A stretch of DNA of 19,644 nucleotides from Candidatus Omnitrophota bacterium. GTDB taxonomy: Bacteria > Hinthialibacterota > Hinthialibacteria > Hinthialibacterales > JAKPRU01. Location of the stretch: the NCBI GenBank assembly GCA_029570205.1, contig JAKQSI010000089.1, forward strand, positions 1 to 19,644, read 5' to 3'. Each line of letters starts with the position of its first letter. Position 1 is the stretch's first letter. The translations under genes and the position numbers were made by a program. Shown here in pieces: positions 2,020 to 15,638 of this stretch. The notes under the pieces were generated by a model. It worked only from the letters and a program-made list of their open reading frames with translations, was not told the origin of the DNA and did no database searches.

Positions 2020-2697
2020 TCACAGCGCAAACTTATACCCCATCCGATGCACCGTGATGATATACTTGGGATTGTCCGGATCGGCCTCGATCTTCTGCCG
2101 CAGTTTGGCAATATGATTATCGACCGTTCGCGTGGAGGGTGCGGATTCGTAGCCCCAAACCTCTTCGAGAAATCGTTCGCGAGTCACAATCTCGCCGCGA
2201 TGTTCGGCGAGAAGCCGCAGAATCTCAAACTCCCGGGGCGACAATTGCAGCGGCCGGCCGCCTTTGGTGGCCTCGTACCGGCCGAAATGCAGATAGATAT
2301 CGTCGAACTGAAACTCCGACAGACTCGAAAGCGCCCCGGAGCGACGAAGAATCGCTTTGACCCGGGCCAGCAATTCCCGCAGACTGAACGGCTTTGTGAT
2401 GTAATCGTCCGCGCCGACTTCCAGCCCCATCACCCGGTCACTTTCGGAACCTTTCGCGGTCAGCATAATGATCGGCGTGGAACTTCCCTCGCGCTTAAGC
2501 TGCCGGCACAAATCCAGGCCATCCATGCCGGGCAGCATCAAATCCAGAATAATCAGGTCGAACTTGTCCTGCCGAGCCAATCGCAGCCCCTCCAAACCGT
2601 TGCTGGTGCTGACCGTGGCGTAACCTTCAAACTGAAGATTGTCTTCCAGGCCGCGACGCATATCCGGCTCATCTTCCACTATAAGTATCCTGGTCAT
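2020..2697 (-). CDS. OmpR/PhoB-family response regulator
   Basis: This is a 225-residue DNA-binding response regulator, probably controlled by the kinase encoded just upstream. The receiver domain (about 1-115) has the acidic pocket E8-D9-E10, phospho-acceptor D52 (LDLMLPGMDG), T80 and K102 (YITKPF). The winged-helix output domain (about 125-225) ends in RTVDNHIAKLRQKIE and the family's HRMGYKF hairpin. I chose the ATG at 2697 because MTRILIVEDE is the true receiver start. This ATG overlaps the kinase stop as ATGA, the usual sign of translational coupling. GGAGAGAGAG upstream, inside the kinase gene, can serve as the ribosome site. The target genes are unknown; the PhoB-like output domain does not identify the stimulus. 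Confidence 0.95.
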   Translation of the reverse strand: MTRILIVEDEPDMRRGLEDNLQFEGYATVSTSNGLEGLRLARQDKFDLIILDLMLPGMDGLDLCRQLKREGSSTPIIMLTAKGSESDRVMGLEVGADDYITKPFSLRELLARVKAILRRSGALSSLSEFQFDDIYLHFGRYEATKGGRPLQLSPREFEILRLLAEHRGEIVTRERFLEEVWGYESAPSTRTVDNHIAKLRQKIEADPDNPKYIITVHRMGYKFAL

Positions 2698-4397
2698 CGC
2701 ACTTGCTCTCTCTCCTCGTTTTGTCCGGTCAGCGCAGGCGCTCCGTCCGGAATCGGCAAACACAGGGAAAACACGCTGCCTTTGCCGAGTGTACTTTGAA
2801 TATCCAGACGTCCATTGTGTCCCTCGATGATATGCTTAACTACCGAAAGCCCCAGCCCGCTTCCGCCTTGTTCCTGTACACGCGGGTCGTTCACCCGGTA
2901 GAATTTCTCGCATATCCGCTTCAAGTTTTGAGGCGCAATCCCGATGCCTTCATCGCGCACACTCACAACCACCTCCCCATTGTTCCTGAACACCCGTACC
3001 TGCACCAGTCGGCCGTCCCCCGAATACTTCGCCGCATTGGACAACAGATTCCACAGGGCCTGAGCCATCGCCTCGCGGTCAATACGAACCATGGGCAGAT
3101 CCGGTTCGATCTCGACGCTCAGTTCCAGGTTGTTTCGGGAAATATGAAACTGCATCGAATCCACAACGCTTTCCACGATGTCTTTCACGGAACCCCAGTT
3201 CAGCTGATACTGTTTCTGCCCGGCTTCGATTTTCGAAAAATTGAGCACATTGTCAATGATCTTGGAAAGACGCTCGCTTTCACGAGTGATTGTATGAAGG
3301 TATTGGCTGCGACGTTCCTGGTCGCCGATTCGCTCCATTTCCAGAGTCTCCGCGAACAGACGGATCAGTCCGAGGGGAGTCCGAAGTTCATGAGAGACTC
3401 GAGCTACAAAATCGGAACGCATTTTTGCCAGATTCAGCTCCCGTGCTATGTTGCGGATCGAGCCGATGATGGCCAGGATCATAATCGCCGCCGCGCAAAT
3501 CGTCTGTGGAATCCAAATGTTCCGAAAATCATCGATATTGAGCGATCGGCGTATTCCTGCGTTCTTCAGATACCGAACCTCCCAGAACGGGAAAGTATCC
3601 CTCAAAACCAGTCCCTGCGCATCGGTTTCTTCGGAAGCAAATTCGCCGGATTTGGCGATGACACGATCCCCATCCCGGATCTCCAGGGGATAAGAGGCAA
3701 CCGTGTAATGACGTTGCCACATATCATAGAGGACCGGCTGAAGGACGTTCTGGATAACATAATTATCAAGGTCATAGATGTATCCTGCGCAAAGGATGGT
3801 TTCCTGTTTCTCATCCGGACGGTAATAGGTGCAGGTTCCGTGGTAACGCTCCTTTGTCTCGTCCAGCGTGGATACCTTAAAAAAGGCCCCGGCGTGAAGT
3901 GTCGCTCCCGGCTCGATCTTTTCCAGCTGTTCCCGCAAATCATTCACTAAAGAGTCTGAGGGAGGGTCACACCTTTTCCACGTGGTCGATTTGAACACCG
4001 GAGATCGCCCGATTCCGGCATCCTTCTCAGGCAATGTTTCCCTGCAATAAAACAGAAATGGGCCATCTCCCAGGCGGAAAAAGAGCAACTTTGTGAATGG
4101 AAGCGGCATTTCAAACTCGATCCGGCTGTCGAATTGAATGCCGGTGGGTTCTTTCAAGCGGGCATTGATCCATAAACGCATCGCGGTGTCGAATTCGGTC
4201 TCCAGCTTCATCAACTCCATGCTTAGAAAATCGTCAAGGGATTGGGTGTAGCTCTGAAGGTCGGCGTTCAGGTACGGCTCGACAGCCTGCTGGAGCAGAT
4301 TGATCCCGGAGAGACCGAGATAAGTAATCAGCCCGGCAGGTAAAATGATCGCCAGGGGTGCGGTAATCAGCAAACGACGTCGAGATGGAACAGCCAT
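2694..4397 (-). CDS. Sensor histidine kinase with large extracytoplasmic domain
   Basis: This is a 567-residue membrane sensor kinase, partner of the response regulator that overlaps its 3' end by 4 nt. Two membrane helices (about 9-29 and 295-315) enclose a sensor region of about 265 residues that I do not recognise. The cytoplasmic part has the dimerisation and phosphotransfer helix with H336 (SHELRTPL), the N-box ALWNLLSNAAKYS, the G1 box DEGIGI, the F-box region EKFYRV and the G2 box GGSGLGL. No HAMP or PAS domain is evident; the kinase core follows the second helix directly. The start is the ATG at 4397, with GGAAAGG five nt upstream; an in-frame TTG at 4415 is less likely. Confidence 0.94.
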   Translation of the reverse strand: MAVPSRRRLLITAPLAIILPAGLITYLGLSGINLLQQAVEPYLNADLQSYTQSLDDFLSMELMKLETEFDTAMRLWINARLKEPTGIQFDSRIEFEMPLPFTKLLFFRLGDGPFLFYCRETLPEKDAGIGRSPVFKSTTWKRCDPPSDSLVNDLREQLEKIEPGATLHAGAFFKVSTLDETKERYHGTCTYYRPDEKQETILCAGYIYDLDNYVIQNVLQPVLYDMWQRHYTVASYPLEIRDGDRVIAKSGEFASEETDAQGLVLRDTFPFWEVRYLKNAGIRRSLNIDDFRNIWIPQTICAAAIMILAIIGSIRNIARELNLAKMRSDFVARVSHELRTPLGLIRLFAETLEMERIGDQERRSQYLHTITRESERLSKIIDNVLNFSKIEAGQKQYQLNWGSVKDIVESVVDSMQFHISRNNLELSVEIEPDLPMVRIDREAMAQALWNLLSNAAKYSGDGRLVQVRVFRNNGEVVVSVRDEGIGIAPQNLKRICEKFYRVNDPRVQEQGGSGLGLSVVKHIIEGHNGRLDIQSTLGKGSVFSLCLPIPDGAPALTGQNEEREQVR

Positions 4398-4444
4398 GGG
4401 AACCTTTCCAGGCAAAAACGACCCAACACGGCTTCAGTAACTAA

Positions 4445-4473
4445 ATTATACTATCACAAACGGGGCGATTCAG
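4445..4473 (-). promoter_or_regulatory. Candidate sigma70 promoter for the minus-strand kinase-regulator operon
   Basis: Read on the minus strand there is a perfect TATAAT (-10, 4445-4450) and a weaker CTGAAT (-35, 4468-4473) with a 17-nt spacer. Transcription would start near 4438, about 40 nt before the kinase ATG. The poor -35 box would suit an activated promoter. Confidence 0.4.
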
Positions 4474-4500
4474 GCTGCATCGTGTCTGTTGACTCAGCGA

Positions 4501-4547
4501 CGGTTTCGGAGTCCGTTTCAGATCGGTTCACTTTTCAATCGGTATAC
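4501..4547. promoter_or_regulatory. Candidate response-regulator operator with direct repeats
   Basis: Four related hexamers, CGGTTT (4501), CCGTTT (4513), CGGTTC (4524) and CGGTAT (4540), are spaced 12, 11 and 16 nt apart, close to one helical turn. OmpR/PhoB-type regulators usually bind direct repeats spaced 11 bp, and this block lies between two divergent systems of that family. TATACG at 4543-4548 could be the -10 box for the plus-strand operon. No binding site was confirmed. Confidence 0.3.
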
Positions 4548-4599
4548 GTAAACTGAGAGAGGATCTGCAAAGCATTTCCATATTGTCACAGGTTGTTCG

Positions 4600-5277
4600 A
4601 TGCGTATTCTCCTGATTGAAGACGACTTGACTATCGCCACCTTTATCCTCAGGGGTCTCAAGGAGGCCGGCTATGCCGTAGACCATGCGTCCGATGGTGA
4701 AACCGGCTTCCATTTGTTGTGCAATGAACCGTATGATGCAGCGGTGGTGGATATCATGCTTCCGAAAATGAACGGCCTGGTTCTGGTGAGCCAGGCCCGT
4801 AATGAATCGGTCAACACGCCGGTCATTTTCCTCAGCGCCAGGCGCGAGGTGGACGACCGGGTCCGAGGATTGCAGAGCGGAGCGGACGATTATCTTGTCA
4901 AACCGTTCGCGTTCAGCGAGCTTCTGGCGCGCTTGCAGGCGCTGATCCGTCGCGCCGGCGGAGCCACCGAAACGACCCGGCTCACGGTCGGGGACCTGGA
5001 GATGGACCTGCTCAAGCACCGTGTCTGGCGCCGGTCCCGTCCCATTGACATTCAGCCGCGTGAGTTCAGCCTCCTGGAGTACCTTATGCGCAATGCCGGA
5101 CGGGTCGTCTCCAAAACGATGATTATGGAGCATGTATGGAACTACGATTTCGATCCTCAGACCAATGTCGTGGAGGCCTGTGTCTGTCGGTTGCGCACAA
5201 AACTGAACGAGGGATTCGAGACGGAAATCATCCGAACCGTGCGTGGGGTGGGATATGTCCTGGAACACACTGCCTGA
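4600..5277 (+). CDS. OmpR-family response regulator (CusR/IrlR-like)
   Basis: This is a 225-residue regulator: a receiver domain at 1-115 with E7-D8-D9, phospho-acceptor D51 (VVDIMLPKMNG) and the K of LVKPF, then a winged-helix DNA-binding domain at about 125-225 ending in RTVRGVGYVLE. The VVxxHVWNYDFDPQTNVVEACVCRLR-type region is typical of the group often annotated as heavy-metal regulators (CusR, IrlR, CopR). Metal sensing is not shown here. The kinase gene starts inside its 3' end (23-nt overlap), so the two are co-translated. The start ATG has no strong ribosome site; ACAGG lies about 10 nt upstream. Confidence 0.95.
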   Translation: MRILLIEDDLTIATFILRGLKEAGYAVDHASDGETGFHLLCNEPYDAAVVDIMLPKMNGLVLVSQARNESVNTPVIFLSARREVDDRVRGLQSGADDYLVKPFAFSELLARLQALIRRAGGATETTRLTVGDLEMDLLKHRVWRRSRPIDIQPREFSLLEYLMRNAGRVVSKTMIMEHVWNYDFDPQTNVVEACVCRLRTKLNEGFETEIIRTVRGVGYVLEHTA

Positions 5278-6670
5278 CCGTCTCTTCCGTTCCGTTGCAT
5301 TCCGCCTGACCTTGGTCTACGCGGTTTTATTCGCGCTGGTTTCCTGTGCGGGTGTGTACGGGATTTATTTTATGATTGCCACATATTTGCGCAGAGAGAT
5401 TGATGAGGAAATCCTCGACGAAAAAGATGAACTGGCCTATCTGGTTTCCACTCAGGACATCGATCAAATTCGGGAAATGTTCCTTCTGGAAACAAAGGAC
5501 GAAGGATTGAATAACGTGTTCTTTCGGCTTACCTCCTCTTCGGGAGACGTGCGGGTTTCCTGCGGCATGTCTCGCTGGGCAGAGCAGGTTTTCCCATCGG
5601 ATTGGTTTACAGAAAACTACGAAGAAGGCGCTGTGTTGGAAACCGTTGTGGTACAACCGGAGGGCCGGAAAGTGCGGGTGTTTTCGTCGGAAATAGGTCC
5701 GAACAAAGTTCTGCAGATCGGGTTTGCTCTGGACCAGCACGAACGACTTCTGGCCCAGTTTCGACAAAACGCCGCCATGATCATCACGGCTATGCTGGCC
5801 CTCGGAACACTGATCGGGTGGAAAATGGCGAGGAAAGCCATGGAAGGCGTGGAGGATGTCACTCACACCGCCGAGCGGATCACCCAGGGACACCTTGACG
5901 AGCGAGTCCGTGTAGCCCAATACGGCGACGAAATCGCCAAACTGGGAGATGCATTCAATCGAATGGCGGATCGCGTTCAAAAACTGTTGATCGAAATGCG
6001 CGAAATGAACGACAATATCGCTCACGATCTCCGAAGCCCCATTGCCCGCATCCGGGGCATTTCGGAAACAGCCATCGCCTTGAGAACGCCACCCACCGAT
6101 ATTGAACAGACTCTGGGAAACGTCGTCGAAGAATGCGACCGACTTCTTCATATCATCAATACCATGTTGGATATTTCAGAGGCAGAAGCCGGGATCGGTC
6201 GGCTGGAATTGGTGGACATCGATTTGGGGACCGTTATCCGCCAAGCGGTAGATTTGTTCCAGCCGGTTGCAGAGGAAAAGAACATTTTCCTGCGAGCGGA
6301 AGTCAATAGCCTCCCACCAATCCGGGGGGATCTGCGTAAAATCCAACGTGCCTTGGCCAACCTGATCGACAATGCTTTGAAATACACCGATTCAGGAGGC
6401 CAGGTGACTCTTCTGGCAGAGGAATGCGGTCGCTTCCTGAAAATCACCGTTCAGGACACCGGAATGGGGATTCCCGATAAAGATAAGAATAAAATCTTCG
6501 AGCGCTTCTATCGGGGAGATTCCAGTCGAACGCATCCGGGGAGCGGCTTGGGATTAAGCCTTGCATGTGCAATCGCCCACGCCCACGGCGGCGAGATCAC
6601 CTTCCATTCCTCTCTCGGGCACGGAAGCAGTTTTTCTCTCATTCTGCCCCGAAAGAAATCCGAACAATAG
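5255..6670 (+). CDS. HAMP-domain sensor histidine kinase (CusS-like)
   Basis: This is a 471-residue sensor kinase, partner of the regulator just upstream. It has a first membrane helix at about 16-42, an extracytoplasmic region of about 130 residues, a second helix at about 172-190, a HAMP domain at about 190-243, and phospho-accepting H257 in MNDNIAHDLRSP. The ATP-binding domain has ALANLIDNALKYT (N), DTGMGIP (G1), FERFYRGD (F) and GSGLGLSL (G2). The IAHDLRSP form of the H-box is common in CusS-like kinases. I chose the ATG at 5255, with GGGGTGGGA just upstream; the in-frame GTG at 5243 would add four residues. Confidence 0.94.
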   Translation: MSWNTLPDRLFRSVAFRLTLVYAVLFALVSCAGVYGIYFMIATYLRREIDEEILDEKDELAYLVSTQDIDQIREMFLLETKDEGLNNVFFRLTSSSGDVRVSCGMSRWAEQVFPSDWFTENYEEGAVLETVVVQPEGRKVRVFSSEIGPNKVLQIGFALDQHERLLAQFRQNAAMIITAMLALGTLIGWKMARKAMEGVEDVTHTAERITQGHLDERVRVAQYGDEIAKLGDAFNRMADRVQKLLIEMREMNDNIAHDLRSPIARIRGISETAIALRTPPTDIEQTLGNVVEECDRLLHIINTMLDISEAEAGIGRLELVDIDLGTVIRQAVDLFQPVAEEKNIFLRAEVNSLPPIRGDLRKIQRALANLIDNALKYTDSGGQVTLLAEECGRFLKITVQDTGMGIPDKDKNKIFERFYRGDSSRTHPGSGLGLSLACAIAHAHGGEITFHSSLGHGSSFSLILPRKKSEQ

Positions 6671-6787: not shown

Positions 6788-7852
6788 ATGTTTCGACATT
6801 GGATGACTTTGGCTTTCCTCATCGCATCACGGATTTGTGCCGCAGGCGCAAACGCGTTGTCACGGATTCTAAAGAAGGCTTGGAAAGAAGAACCTTTCGA
6901 TCCTCGCCCATTGATGGCAGGTGTCAAGAAACGATTCCTGTTGGACAAGGATCAGTTCAGCTTTGTTGTGTTTGGCGACACGGAACTTGAGCCGGAGTCC
7001 CAGCCGCTTTTCGATTTCGCGGAACAATTGCACCCCGATTTCATTGTGCATCTCGGAGATATTGTAGACCGGGGTGCGGATGTCCTGACCATGGATTGGG
7101 ACCGCTTGGCAAGACAACATGGCAGGCTGTTCCGGCGGATCCCATTCTGGCCTGTTATCGGCAACCACGAGATCCGGGGGAATCTCAAGTGGGCGAACGG
7201 TTCCCGTTTCAAACAGTTTTTTGGTCTGGATAAGGACTACTACAGTTTCGATTGCGGGCGGTTTCGCTTCATTATTCTCTCCTGGTCGTTCACCGAGCAG
7301 ATCATGAACGGGGGAGTCTCCCACTCAACGGAGATGGATTGGCTCCTCGATTCGCTCGATTCGGCAATGGGAATGGAAGTCATCCTGTGTCTGCATCGAA
7401 GCATCCACACCGTGGGAAGAAATATCCCACCCGTCCGGGAACTCGAAAATCTGTGCAGGCAGTATGGTGTAAGGCTCGTGTTTGGCGGACATGACCACGT
7501 ATATTATCGAACCTGCCGGGATGGGGTCACCTATATCACTTCGGGCATGGGTGGAAACCGACTGCATCCCCTCTACGGAGTCGGCAAGACCATTGAAGGA
7601 GACGTTTACCTGGGACGGAAACTGCAAAGCGAGCAACTGGTTTGGCGCAAGATCGGGCAGAACACCGAAGAGCCTTTTCCCTCGGAATCTCACGGACTGG
7701 TCGAAGCTGTCGTGGAGGATGACCGGCTGACCGTGCGCGCTCTCAGCCTGAGCGGGATCGAAATCGACCGATTGGTTTTGGATTTGTCCGATTCCGAGGA
7801 AAAACAGACCGTTGTTTTTAAACCCCTGTATTCAGGAGTGACAACGCCTTGA
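6788..7852 (+). CDS. Calcineurin-like metallophosphoesterase, probably exported
   Basis: This is a 354-residue protein of the purple-acid-phosphatase/calcineurin-like superfamily, which hydrolyses phosphate esters with a dinuclear metal centre. Visible motifs, in order, are GDTE (D64), GDIVDRG (D91), GNHE (N126-H127), CLHRS (H203) and GGHDHVYY (H235, H237). The first motif is normally GDxH; here E66 stands where histidine usually is, a change seen in several phosphatase subgroups. The N-terminus is hydrophobic (residues 5-22) and ends in AGANA, a possible signal peptide, although R15 interrupts it. The substrate cannot be told from sequence. It lies between a sensor kinase and a PAP2-glycosyltransferase, all on one strand, which suggests an envelope role. 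The start lacks a good ribosome site. Confidence 0.85.
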   Translation: MFRHWMTLAFLIASRICAAGANALSRILKKAWKEEPFDPRPLMAGVKKRFLLDKDQFSFVVFGDTELEPESQPLFDFAEQLHPDFIVHLGDIVDRGADVLTMDWDRLARQHGRLFRRIPFWPVIGNHEIRGNLKWANGSRFKQFFGLDKDYYSFDCGRFRFIILSWSFTEQIMNGGVSHSTEMDWLLDSLDSAMGMEVILCLHRSIHTVGRNIPPVRELENLCRQYGVRLVFGGHDHVYYRTCRDGVTYITSGMGGNRLHPLYGVGKTIEGDVYLGRKLQSEQLVWRKIGQNTEEPFPSESHGLVEAVVEDDRLTVRALSLSGIEIDRLVLDLSDSEEKQTVVFKPLYSGVTTP

Positions 7853-7975: not shown

Positions 7976-10429
7976 ATGGCACAGGCACAGATTCAAGGCG
8001 GAAAGAGTTACCTCAAGTGGGCGGTTCCGGCGCTCGTCCTCATGGGGCTTTGCTTGTGGCTGACCCACATTTTCCTCGATTCCACAATTCCGGTCTGGGC
8101 TTACACACATTTGCGCAGTTCGATTGGTGGTCCCTGGTATGAGGCGGTTAAGGAGCTGGGGCAGATTCAGGTTCCATTGTGGCTTTTTTTCCTGATGGCT
8201 GGAGTGGGCAGCCGGAAACGGATTGCGATAGAGGGATTTGCGGCGTTAGCCTTCATGGGAATCTCGGTTATTGTCTTTAAGTTTATTTTTGGGAGGCTTC
8301 GCCCCGCCTACGAACTCGGAACCCGGCATGTCTCGGAAATCCGCGCTTGGGATTTCGGACAGTACTCCTTTCCATCCGGTGACACCACCTGCGCCTTTGC
8401 GGCAGCCGTGGTATTCGCGGTTGTGTTGCCGAAAGCCTGGAAATGGATCCCCTATACAATTGCCGCTGTGGTGGCCGTTCTCCGCGTATTGAGCGTCCAT
8501 CATTACCCCACAGATATCGTGGCAGGCATGTTCCTGGGTGTCGGCTGCGGAGTATCGGCATTGCGTCTTGTCGAACGGTATCTCCGGCGCATTCCCATGT
8601 CCCTGTGGTATCGCCCTCGCTTGTACCTTGCGATCCTTCTGCTTTTCCCTCTGACGGATCTTTTTTCAGATCACGGTGAGGGGCCATTTTTCAGTTTCTT
8701 CGTTTGTTTTGGACCCATCCTGGTCGCCATTCTTCTGATCGCCAAAAGTGACTTCTGGCTGCACCGGCTTGCTTCCGAAGACCAAACGGGATTCCAACAG
8801 GGGAAACGAATCTGCCTGGTTGCGCTGCTCCTGTGCGCTCTCTCTGTATTGCCCAATCTTCCATGGACGACATTCTACGACCGGGACGAGGGATACTATG
8901 CAGGCTGCGCGCGAGAGATGATTTTGCGCGGTGATCCATTTGTGCCCCATTTCAACGGAGAACCCTGGCTGGAGAAACCGCCCCTGACCATCTGGATGAT
9001 GGCCCTTTCCATGAAAGTTTTCGGGCAAAACGAATTCGCTGCCCGGTTGCCGTCCGCGCTGGCCGGATTGCTGGCAGTCTGGATGACATACTCTCTGGCC
9101 AGGCGGATGTACACGTTGACTGCGGGCGTTCTGGCCGGCGTGATCCTGGGAACCAGCCTGTTATTCGCCGGGGCCATGCGTCTCGCGCTTTTGGATACAA
9201 CTCTGGTTTGCACCTTGCTTCTTGCCATGATCGGATTCTGGGATTTCCTGGAAACTCGGAGCCGTAAGGGCCGGCTTCTGTTTTACATCGGGTGCGGTTT
9301 GGGGGTCTTGGCGAAAGGTCCGCTGGGGTTTGTTCTTCCTGTGATCTCGGCGTGCGGTTTTGTTTTGCTTTCCCGTCAGTGGCAGATCCTGAAGGAACTG
9401 CGCCCGGTCTCCGGTTTTCTGATTACAGCCGCCGTTGTGGGTATCTGGGCCGGTCCGGCCCTGTGGATCACCCATGGCGCCTACTTTCACGAACTCGTCT
9501 GGGTCCGCACGCTGGAACCGATTCTTTCGCCCTTGCAGGGGCATGGCGGCGGAAATTGGATCGCCTATTTTCTGCTCCTTCCGGTCTATATCCCGGCGCT
9601 TTTTGTTGGAATGATTCCCTGGAGCATCTTCTTCGTTCCGGCCCTGCGCAACGGAATCTTGAAAGACCGGTCTGAAAACCGTGCGGCATTCCTGGGCGGG
9701 TGGATTATTCCGCAATTCCTGGCGTTCAGCCTGGTCAGCACAAAGCTGCCGCACTATATGCTTCCCCTCTTTCCGGCCCTGGCGATTGTTCTAGGGGCGT
9801 TTCTGGGTGAGTCAATCCGCAATGGGGATGCGCTCATCCGGCGCTTAGGCTCCAAATCGCAGACCTCATTTATTGTGGGGGGGGCTATATTGGCGGCAGT
9901 TATTCTTGGAGCGCCGGCGGGGCTTGGTTTCCTTCACGAGACCCCCTGGTTTCTTCCGGCCGCTCTGGTTGTCGCACTCGGAACAATCCGGGGAATACGG
10001 TTGTTGAGAGGCAACCGGGATCACCGCGCAATGGGGGAACTTGCTGCTGTAACCGTTTTGTGTTTCGCGTTGCTTTGTAGTGTTGCTTTGCCCCGACTGG
10101 ATAAAGCGAAATCCGCCCGGCAGGTCGCGGCCTTTCTCAAAGAGTACTATGGGGAAAAGTCTCTGTCCCAGGCACGAATCGGCATGAGAAGATATCAGGA
10201 AGTGTCTTTCCCGTTTTACTTGGGGCAGCACGTAACGAAACTCTCAGACACACAGGAAATGGAGCAATTCCTTCGCCAAGAGGGTCCCGCCTCTGTCGTC
10301 CTGCCGGAGAAATACCTGGAACGATCTGTCGGTGAAGGTCTTTCCGTTCCATACGAGGTTCTCTGGGAAAAACGCGTCTGGATTCCCGAAAAGGCCGAGT
10401 GGTTGGATCTGGTAATTATCGGCAACTAA
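7976..10429 (+). CDS. PAP2 lipid phosphatase fused to an ArnT-like GT39 glycosyltransferase
   Basis: This is an 817-residue polytopic membrane protein with two recognisable halves. Residues about 10-205 form a PAP2 phosphatase: K102-x6-R109-P110, PSGD (133-136) and R170-x5-H176-x3-D180. The second motif is normally PSGH, so the usual histidine is replaced by D136. Residues about 280-817 resemble ArnT/PMT (GT39) transferases: YDRDEGYYAGCAREM (301-315) with the conserved acidic pair, then EKPPLTIW (333-340) and a long hydrophobic body with a soluble C-terminal domain. Such enzymes take sugars from polyprenyl phosphate; PAP2 enzymes release phosphate from lipid phosphates. A joint role in lipid A or polyprenyl-phosphate-linked glycosylation is inference. 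The ATG at 7976 is the likely start; the ribosome site is weak. The reading frame is unbroken. Confidence 0.88.
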   Translation: MAQAQIQGGKSYLKWAVPALVLMGLCLWLTHIFLDSTIPVWAYTHLRSSIGGPWYEAVKELGQIQVPLWLFFLMAGVGSRKRIAIEGFAALAFMGISVIVFKFIFGRLRPAYELGTRHVSEIRAWDFGQYSFPSGDTTCAFAAAVVFAVVLPKAWKWIPYTIAAVVAVLRVLSVHHYPTDIVAGMFLGVGCGVSALRLVERYLRRIPMSLWYRPRLYLAILLLFPLTDLFSDHGEGPFFSFFVCFGPILVAILLIAKSDFWLHRLASEDQTGFQQGKRICLVALLLCALSVLPNLPWTTFYDRDEGYYAGCAREMILRGDPFVPHFNGEPWLEKPPLTIWMMALSMKVFGQNEFAARLPSALAGLLAVWMTYSLARRMYTLTAGVLAGVILGTSLLFAGAMRLALLDTTLVCTLLLAMIGFWDFLETRSRKGRLLFYIGCGLGVLAKGPLGFVLPVISACGFVLLSRQWQILKELRPVSGFLITAAVVGIWAGPALWITHGAYFHELVWVRTLEPILSPLQGHGGGNWIAYFLLLPVYIPALFVGMIPWSIFFVPALRNGILKDRSENRAAFLGGWIIPQFLAFSLVSTKLPHYMLPLFPALAIVLGAFLGESIRNGDALIRRLGSKSQTSFIVGGAILAAVILGAPAGLGFLHETPWFLPAALVVALGTIRGIRLLRGNRDHRAMGELAAVTVLCFALLCSVALPRLDKAKSARQVAAFLKEYYGEKSLSQARIGMRRYQEVSFPFYLGQHVTKLSDTQEMEQFLRQEGPASVVLPEKYLERSVGEGLSVPYEVLWEKRVWIPEKAEWLDLVIIGN

Positions 10430-10564: not shown

Positions 10565-11071
10565 TTAATCGATCAACCTGTCCGGCTCCTTCTGTTCTTT
10601 GGGTGAGGGACTTTTTATTCCGCGCAATTTCCGCAGGAAATCCGGTGTAGAGAGTTTGTCGTCCTCCTCCTCCAGCCCAAGCCTTTCGACTACGACCATA
10701 CGGCTGGTTCCCCGGTCGGGATCCTCCGTGCCGGTCTCGATCTCTTCTTCCATGCCCATTTTATTGAGAATGTATTTTCGCAGGTGACTGTCGAGTTCCG
10801 GGGTCTGTCCGTCGTCAATCTGGATCATGCCGTCCGCCCGTGTTTTGATCCACCCCAGACGTTTCCAGCGCCCAATTCGCTTCTCCGTAACCCCCTCCAC
10901 TTCCGCACAGATCTCATAGATATGCCGAAGCCGCCCCTTTGCGCTCTTGAGATACATGAGCACTTCTACGAGGACCTGGTCGTCCTCCGGCTCACAGGAA
11001 GGGCACAAAGTTTCGGAGCAGGTTTTCTTCTTAACCGGCGCTCCGCAAAAGCAACAACGTACTTCCCCCAT
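10565..11071 (-). CDS. Zinc-ribbon/HTH protein resembling flagellar-operon protein YvyF
   Basis: This is a 168-residue protein with an N-terminal four-cysteine zinc ribbon (C6/C9 and C23/C26), an acidic link, and a helix-turn-helix-like region at about 33-75 (VTEKRIGRWKRLGWI). The rest is charged and probably disordered. The order zinc ribbon, then V-x-x-YL-x-n-EI-x-n-GV-E-RI-x-RW, matches the YvyF/TIGR03826 group encoded in flagellar operons of Firmicutes. That match is by pattern only. AGGAGG lies 5 nt before the ATG. It is the last gene of a three-gene minus-strand unit, 68 nt after the STAS gene. The protein encoded at 15114-15638 has the same design. A regulatory, DNA- or protein-binding role is likely; the partner is unknown. 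Confidence 0.72.
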   Translation of the reverse strand: MGEVRCCFCGAPVKKKTCSETLCPSCEPEDDQVLVEVLMYLKSAKGRLRHIYEICAEVEGVTEKRIGRWKRLGWIKTRADGMIQIDDGQTPELDSHLRKYILNKMGMEEEIETGTEDPDRGTSRMVVVERLGLEEEDDKLSTPDFLRKLRGIKSPSPKEQKEPDRLID

Positions 11072-11139: not shown

Positions 11140-11484
11140 TCACGATTTGCTGAAGGCGGCAATTGCTTCGGAGCGATCCTCGAAAATATCCAGAATATGG
11201 TCGATCCTCGTTGCCGCGAACGTATCCCGCACACGGCGCAGCAAATGGAGAAATTTGATGTCGCCGCCCCGCTCACGCAAATCCCGGGCAAATGCCACAA
11301 ACACCCCCACGGTATAAGAGGAGATCAGGTCCACTTCTTTCATATTCAGCAGAATGCGGACCCGCCCTTCCTTCAAAAGACCGTGGAGCTCCCCCCGCAG
11401 CCAGACCGTATTCTCGAAATCCAGCTCACCGGACAATTTCAGAATGCTCACGTCACCGACATCTTCCCGTTCGATAGGTATCAT
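11140..11484 (-). CDS. STAS-domain protein (anti-sigma factor antagonist type)
   Basis: This is a 114-residue single STAS domain, the fold of SpoIIAA and RsbV, which bind anti-sigma-factor kinases and are controlled by serine phosphorylation. It shows the pattern VGDVSILKLSGELDFENT, then ILLNMKEVDLISSYTVGVFV, where SS is the expected phosphorylation loop, and a final amphipathic helix (ILDIFEDRSEAIAAF). The usual DSSGL is here ISSYTVG, so the loop is diverged. GGAGGG lies 6 nt before the ATG. The start overlaps the stop of the upstream gene as ATGA. No RsbW-type kinase or sigma factor is present in the window, so its partner is elsewhere. Confidence 0.88.
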   Translation of the reverse strand: MIPIEREDVGDVSILKLSGELDFENTVWLRGELHGLLKEGRVRILLNMKEVDLISSYTVGVFVAFARDLRERGGDIKFLHLLRRVRDTFAATRIDHILDIFEDRSEAIAAFSKS

Positions 11485-15113: not shown

Positions 15114-15638
15114 TCACGGCCTCTCCAGCAGCACCCCCTTCTTCGGAACCAGCCAGAGCCGTCGCATCTGATAAGGCCGCTTGATTTGCGAATGTCTCTC
15201 CCAATACGCCTCACGAAGCAATTTCACACGGCGCGGCGCACGCTCCCATTCTTCCTCCAGCGCCACGGTCGCCTTCGGCAGCGGCACCGGCGGCGGGCTT
15301 GGCTTGTTGTAACCGCATGAATCGCAGAAGAATCGGTTTTCCATAACCCGCCCGCAACTGGGGCATTTGCATTTCCGAATTGCTGTGCATCTAATCCGAT
15401 GTTTCCTCAGCCACTCCGCCACACGGCCCTCTTCGATAGCCAGCTTCTCCGCGATTTCCTCAATGGTCAATTTAGGATTCTCTTTCAGGCATTCACGTGC
15501 CCGGTCAAGAAGCTCTCGATCGATCTCGAAACAATCCTGACATCGCCCATCCTGATCCACTGGCTGGTAATTCCCGCAATCGACACAGTTCTTGAACCGT
15601 GCCTCTCGAAATCGTGCGTTTACCAGCAATCGGCTCAT
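15114..15638 (-). CDS. Zinc-ribbon/HTH/zinc-ribbon regulator, YvyF-like
   Basis: This is a 174-residue protein with two cysteine clusters around a helix-turn-helix-like region: C18/C21 with C33/C36, then LTIEEIAEKLAIEEGRVAEW (57-76), then C92/C95 with C105/C108. The C-terminal 65 residues are basic and proline-rich. The layout follows the YvyF/TIGR03826 flagellar-operon protein, which has a ribbon, a helical region and a second ribbon, and it resembles the shorter protein at 10565-11071. The likeness is by pattern. The ATG at 15638 has CAGGAT 6-7 nt upstream and lies behind a near-consensus sigma70 promoter. The gene stands alone; the antitoxin-toxin genes converge on it from the left. Confidence 0.72.
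   Translation of the reverse strand: MSRLLVNARFREARFKNCVDCGNYQPVDQDGRCQDCFEIDRELLDRARECLKENPKLTIEEIAEKLAIEEGRVAEWLRKHRIRCTAIRKCKCPSCGRVMENRFFCDSCGYNKPSPPPVPLPKATVALEEEWERAPRRVKLLREAYWERHSQIKRPYQMRRLWLVPKKGVLLERP

Follow-up and report, generated by a model that had tools for sequence, protein, structure and literature searches.

In Mesorhizobium and Oligotropha, LpxE and then RgtF act in turn on lipid A to swap phosphate for GalA, and in Rhizobium the same is done by LpxF and then RgtD (PMC7663294, PMC5644692, PMC7795004). Each pair consists of a PAP2 phosphatase and a GT39 polyprenyl-phosphate-sugar transferase, working sequentially at the periplasmic face. In M. loti, rgtE, lpxE and rgtF are clustered (PMC5644692). 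A PAP2 enzyme of lipid A can also be physically associated with ArnT, as the P. aeruginosa PAP2 protein LpxT binds ArnT and the interaction alters polymyxin resistance (PMC13142001). No description of a PAP2-GT39/ArnT fusion was found in the open-access literature searched. Table 4 of one study appears to assign a single O. carboxidovorans locus tag, RS09935, to its lpxF and rgtD matches alike (PMC7663294), and RS09935 is perhaps an unremarked PAP2-GT39 fusion. In O. carboxidovorans OM5, GalA sits at the 4' position of lipid A.

The gene described here joins these two enzyme types in a single frame. It lies in a window of 19,644 nucleotides, the whole stretch of DNA that was analysed, at positions 7976-10429 of the plus strand, where an open reading frame of 817 amino acids begins with ATG and contains no internal stops. 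Pfam PAP2 (PF01569) matches residues 89-200 (E 1.1e-16, 61 bits against a cut-off of 27), and PMT_2 (PF13231) matches residues 334-489 (E 2.5e-21, 77 bits against a cut-off of 26). PMT (PF02366) is also found (E 2.4e-18), and PMT_2 and PMT together span residues 303-489. The sequence-only reading had taken the frame for a lipid phosphatase joined to an ArnT-like, polyprenyl-phosphate-dependent glycosyltransferase, and the intact frame and both domain assignments bear this out.

The fusion is a real, conserved and recurrent domain pairing. Another species of the genus (G001, L023/L033) has a full-length ortholog of 820 amino acids, 79% identical over residues 1-817, and since this same full-length frame comes from a separate assembly, the fusion is not an accident of frame or assembly. 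A third genome of the genus (G002) matches residues 388-817 at 96%, with the remainder missing at a contig end. The independent full-length frame and the G002 match up to the contig end together rule out a sequencing or assembly chimera. The frame is under purifying selection in every part, with dN/dS of ~0.22 in the PAP2 half, ~0.18 in the linker, ~0.14 in the transferase half and ~0.12 at the C-terminus (~0.16 overall).

The PAP2 domain occupies residues ~10-203 (8003-8584, plus strand, as are all parts of the fusion) and has six predicted transmembrane helices. Motif C1 is present as K102-X6-R109-P110 (KFIFGRLRP, 8279-8305), invariant in our alignments, and C3 as R170-X5-H176-X3-D180 (8483-8515), in which motif and alignments mark His176 as the nucleophile. 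The KX6RP and RX5HX3D signatures and the fold are thus those of the PAP2 superfamily, while the canonical PSGH of C2 and the SR that opens C3 are absent. The fusion instead has L169-R170 at C3 and PSGD at C2 (8372-8383), where P133-S134-G135 is followed by Asp136 in place of His. PSGD occurs in only two of the 41 PAP2 homologues with a readable motif, both of them members of the genus. The active phosphatase LpxE of A. aeolicus carries the same change (PMC6581854), so PSGD does not exclude activity.

PAP2 homologues were found in viral contigs, and with them a usable model of this half could be made: AF2 on residues 1-300, from 27 sequences, gave a pLDDT of roughly 73-93 for the greater part of the core. 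Its closest solved fold is A. aeolicus LpxE, a lipid A 1-phosphatase (6ebu; Z 16.6, rmsd 3.0 over 155 aa), followed by G6PC1 (Z 14.7), YodM (14.1) and PgpB (12.9). A sequence search of the PDB also retrieved 6ebu, against residues 86-197 (E 1e-6). The two proteins share KX6RP, RX5HX3D and PSGD, but A. aeolicus LpxE is a stand-alone protein of ~180 aa with 24% identity over 155 residues. Placement of the PAP2 half in an LpxE clade is not supported, as the PAP2 tree does not join the window protein to A. aeolicus LpxE as a sister. The fusion is not matched by the LpxE model NF007159, which itself matches other PAP2 proteins weakly, and A. aeolicus LpxE is reportedly very distant from other LpxEs. 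Models for undecaprenyl-diphosphate phosphatases score below their cut-offs, with 38.5 bits for the SepP type (NF047884, cut-off 250) and 23.1 bits for the YbjG type (NF008813, cut-off 229).

The second half is a GT39/ArnT-like GT-C transferase, with a membrane domain at residues ~273-712 (8792-10111), Pfam PMT_2/PMT matches above cut-off, and both the DE and the KPP motif. ArnT, the lipid A 4-amino-4-deoxy-L-arabinose transferase, belongs to the same fold family, and its structure 5ezm was retrieved in the PDB sequence search against residues 294-612 (E 9e-24). Over residues 281-725, the equivalog model for ArnT (NF009784) gives 175.6 bits, where its cut-off is 567 and E. coli ArnT reaches 805.6. 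In alignment with 5ezm, the invariant or near-invariant D304-E305 (8885-8890) correspond to ArnT D55/E56 of the acceptor/metal site, K334 in EKPPL (8975-8977) to K85, which binds the carrier phosphate, D407 (9194-9196) to D158, and K447 in AKGP (9314-9316) to K203. The functions of these ArnT residues have been described (PMC7801869). The viral contigs were also searched for GT39 homologues, to deepen the alignment, and yielded none. Residues 713-817 (10112-10426) have no transmembrane helix and form a soluble domain, predicted to be periplasmic like the C-terminal domain of ArnT (PMC5377068). Judged by motifs and alignment, both halves retain their catalytic residues.

Between the halves lies a linker with two extra transmembrane helices (residues ~212-266, 8609-8773), which AF2 placed, at low confidence, at residues 212-231 and 237-266. 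Hydropathy agrees, with six PAP2 helices, two linker helices at ~212-231 and ~237-266, and the first ArnT helix at ~279-295. Loops on the cytoplasmic side that flank the linker have 4-6 Lys or Arg residues, whereas there are none in the short loop within the linker, which is assigned to the periplasm. The active sites of LpxE (PMC6581854) and ArnT (PMC5377068) are both periplasmic. Because helix parity and the positive-inside rule combine with these known locations, the PAP2 and GT39 sites of the fusion are both predicted to lie on the periplasmic face, not on opposite membrane faces, the arrangement that would have told against the sequence-only reading. A full-length AF2 model (10 sequences) reached a pLDDT of 39 and was discarded, so the same-face placement is a parity argument.

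Upstream of the fusion, on the same strand, are genes for an OmpR-type response regulator (4600-5277), a HAMP histidine kinase (5243-6670) and, directly before the fusion, a metallophosphoesterase (6788-7852; PF00149, E 2.5e-16). Their products are 92%, 86% and 72% identical to those of G001, where the order of all four genes is kept and the downstream genes differ. The metallophosphoesterase, conserved in the genus, has a possible N-terminal signal sequence. The response regulator and kinase belong to two adjacent, divergent OmpR-type two-component systems at 2020-6670, one on each strand (RR1/HK1 minus, RR2/HK2 plus), conserved in the genus. Further along, on the minus strand, 10565-11071 and 15114-15638 weakly resemble YvyF (TIGR03826), a flagellar-region family, and one of the two adjoins a gene resembling an anti-sigma-factor antagonist (11140-11484). 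The fusion's own neighbours are thus a two-component system and a metallophosphoesterase, and the window holds no lipid A biosynthesis genes.

The host makes Kdo-lipid A: its genome encodes LpxC, and LpxK with KdtA beside it. The LpxC sequence (G000:C48:33376-34188, L046) lies within an open frame of 519 aa, longer than LpxC alone, that may be an LpxC-FabZ fusion. Along with these genes for phosphorylated lipid A, the genome holds a candidate donor synthase of the ArnC/RgtE type, an ArnC-like GT2 with 36% identity across residues 9-315 of 322, so the components expected around a GalA-type system are present. A GT39-GT2-DedA cluster is encoded as well. UppP is also encoded, with a strong match (255 bits). 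It ends a 904-aa frame (G000:C93, L049 1-2307) whose upstream part resembles a solute-binding protein, possibly a fusion or a read-through coincidence of frames. No second PAP2 protein was found in the host genome, which is 93% complete; the fusion is its only one.

The pairing extends well beyond this genus. Our sample comprised 386 genomes, mostly one per family. A single frame carries both PAP2 and GT39 in at least 9 of these, from 7 families (G000, G001, G111, G377, G137, G274, G279, G142 with two loci, and G138 with the order reversed). Homologues are therefore not always encoded as two genes, a result that would have spoken against the sequence-only reading, and the idea that the fusion is unique to the genus was rejected. 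About eight further genomes among the matches listed have the two as separate neighbouring genes (G034, G181, G036, G183, G238, G367, G121 and G005), with 12 bp between the PAP2 and GT39 matches in G183; G005 belongs to the window's own order. Elsewhere in the window's class no PAP2-GT39 fusion was found, and most genomes of the class have no recognisable PAP2. In a plasmid collection, no record spans 80% or more of the window's fusion or of the fusions of L036 and L038. On the GT39 tree the fusion label needs three changes, two of them forced by starred branches, and on the PAP2 tree five, three of them forced. Because both trees require such changes, repeated fusion is likely, with many of the deep branches weak.

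The other fusions (G377/G111, G142, G137, G274, G279 and the reversed G138) span 670-1156 aa and, unlike the window protein, mostly carry PSGH or PSNH. Those of G137, G274, G279 and the C4 locus of G142 also differ in having an Rgt-like GT39 and in standing in an operon with an ArnC/RgtE-type GT2 and LPG_synthase_TM (the GT2 of G142-C4 was judged by its N-terminus only). The separate genes of G183 stand in the order heptosyltransferase II, GmhB, heptosyltransferase I, PAP2, GT39, ArnC-like GT2 (258 bits), LPG_synthase_TM. In G193, a PAP2-LpxB fusion, MsbA (613 bits, above cut-off) and GT39 follow one another in overlapping frames. By their neighbours, then, PAP2-GT39 pairs in other genomes are tied to lipid A or LPS, in keeping with the proposed link to envelope glycosylation.

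Several other unusual PAP2 frames were seen in the course of this survey. The fusion of PAP2 with LpxB, the lipid-A-disaccharide synthase, occurs at L035 2248-4086 (G193:C218) and L170, and is another PAP2 fusion pointing to lipid A. The reversed GT39-PAP2 frame of G138 (C1, L040 2282-5752; 1156 aa) has ~470 further residues with no Pfam match and directly follows a GT2 gene. In two other genomes, PAP2 is fused to an alpha/beta-hydrolase-like domain (L041 1634-3097 and L042 2475-3869).

We propose that the fusion is a bifunctional inner-membrane enzyme whose target, lipid A or a different LPS-type lipid, would be modified on the periplasmic side. The PAP2 half would strip a lipid phosphate by way of a phosphorylated His176, while K102, R109 and R170 keep hold of the phosphate. 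A polyprenyl-phosphate-sugar would serve as donor, supplied by an ArnC/RgtE-type GT2 whose gene lies elsewhere in the genome. The GT39 half would then move one sugar onto the freed hydroxyl, as RgtF and RgtD do, or, in the manner of ArnT, onto a phosphate that is still present. Und-P would be released, and the fusion would keep phosphate removal and sugar transfer together. We give about an even chance to this reading, a one-polypeptide version of LpxE/LpxF with RgtF/RgtD or ArnT that takes a phosphate off lipid A and puts a sugar on. We infer the lipid substrate, the position, the sugar and the passage of one molecule between the two sites.

This reading is favoured because of GT39 chemistry, the LpxE+RgtF and LpxF+RgtD pairs, and the binding of LpxT to ArnT. 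Other points for it are the retained catalytic residues, the closeness of the PAP2 half to A. aeolicus LpxE in sequence and fold, the shared PSGD, the host's LpxC, LpxK, KdtA and ArnC-like GT2, the recurrence of the pairing and its LPS neighbours elsewhere. The fusion is also the sole PAP2 of a host in which UppP covers Und-PP recycling. Against it, those LPS neighbourhoods belong to other GT39 types, mostly more distant and Rgt-like, the window contributes no lipid A gene, the PAP2 tree sets the protein apart from A. aeolicus LpxE, and the NCBIfam scores for ArnT, SepP and other UppP-type PAP2 models are far below cut-off.

Alternatively, the PAP2 half could be a carrier-lipid phosphatase, turning Und-PP into Und-P for the GT39 donor and never touching the acceptor. 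PAP2 enzymes including LpxE do act on Und-PP (PMC6581854), and the best NCBIfam matches outside ArnT are the SepP and YbjG types, although at scores far under their cut-offs. Und-P is, besides, the limiting carrier. GT39/ArnT enzymes, however, consume polyprenyl-monophosphate sugars and release Und-P, with no Und-PP formed, so this reaction would gain from a phosphatase for the acceptor and not from a coupled one for Und-PP. As the host also has its own UppP, we consider the carrier role unlikely. The sequence-only reading had left open whether a phosphate or a pyrophosphate is cleared, from lipid A or from the carrier; the lipid A phosphate is now favoured by the neighbours found elsewhere, and the carrier pyrophosphate has become the less likely target. 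A different membrane acceptor, such as PGP/PG, a diacylglycerol glycolipid or a surface polysaccharide, could instead be dephosphorylated to an alcohol by PAP2 and glycosylated by GT39. GT39 acceptors include proteins and polysaccharides, PAP2 phosphatases are promiscuous, with A. aeolicus LpxE hydrolysing PGP (PMC6581854), and no lipid A gene adjoins the window gene; the LPS and lipid A genes beside the pairs of G183 and G193 make such an acceptor distinctly unlikely.

An LpxT-like phosphotransferase or regulatory partner in place of a phosphatase would make the fusion a covalent form of LpxT-ArnT, tuning the competition for the same phosphate. PmrAB controls arnT in other bacteria, and the two-component genes beside the fusion might act on it in a comparable way. 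The effect of the P. aeruginosa LpxT-ArnT contact on polymyxin resistance (PMC13142001) is in line with this possibility, and the LPS-operon examples are compatible with either reading. The fold, however, best matches the phosphatase LpxE, in a comparison set that included no LpxT structure or model, and we regard an LpxT-like role as very unlikely. It is also conceivable that a lost stop codon merged two membrane enzymes of one operon, which still act independently. The adjacent, overlapping PAP2 and GT39 genes of G034, G183 and G036 would make such read-through fusion easy. Yet fusions are found in 7 families, with the domains in either order, a single gain or loss of fusion does not account for the trees, and the linker is under purifying selection, all of which leaves independent action highly improbable.

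If the lipid A reading is correct, two steps known only from separate enzymes (LpxE or LpxF, with RgtF, RgtD or ArnT) are done by one protein. The charge of the outer membrane, resistance to polycations and recognition by the immune system are all governed by these steps. The recurrent fusion and adjacency are also Rosetta-stone evidence that unassigned PAP2 proteins encoded beside GT39, usually annotated as no more than "phosphatase PAP2 family", are lipid A/LPS phosphatases. The prediction for poorly known phyla is a lipid A that is poor in phosphate and capped with sugar. It is tempting to go further and picture a single-enzyme exchanger that replaces phosphate by sugar at the same lipid A position with no release from the protein, a solution with repeated origins in distant phyla that would alter lipid A charge from one gene. 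This stronger version is tentative, and on the unlikely side.

Finally, the fusion is probably a single-protein form of the known two-enzyme swapping or masking of lipid A phosphates, and not a new kind of system. It differs from LpxE+RgtF and LpxF+RgtD in being one polypeptide where they are two proteins, and in having an ArnT-like transferase half. It differs from the LpxT-ArnT complex, in which LpxT adds phosphate and the contact is non-covalent. ArnT itself lacks a PAP2 domain and transfers Ara4N onto a phosphate, and the fusion falls far below the cut-off that defines its equivalogs while conserving the counterparts of D55/E56, K85, D158 and K203.
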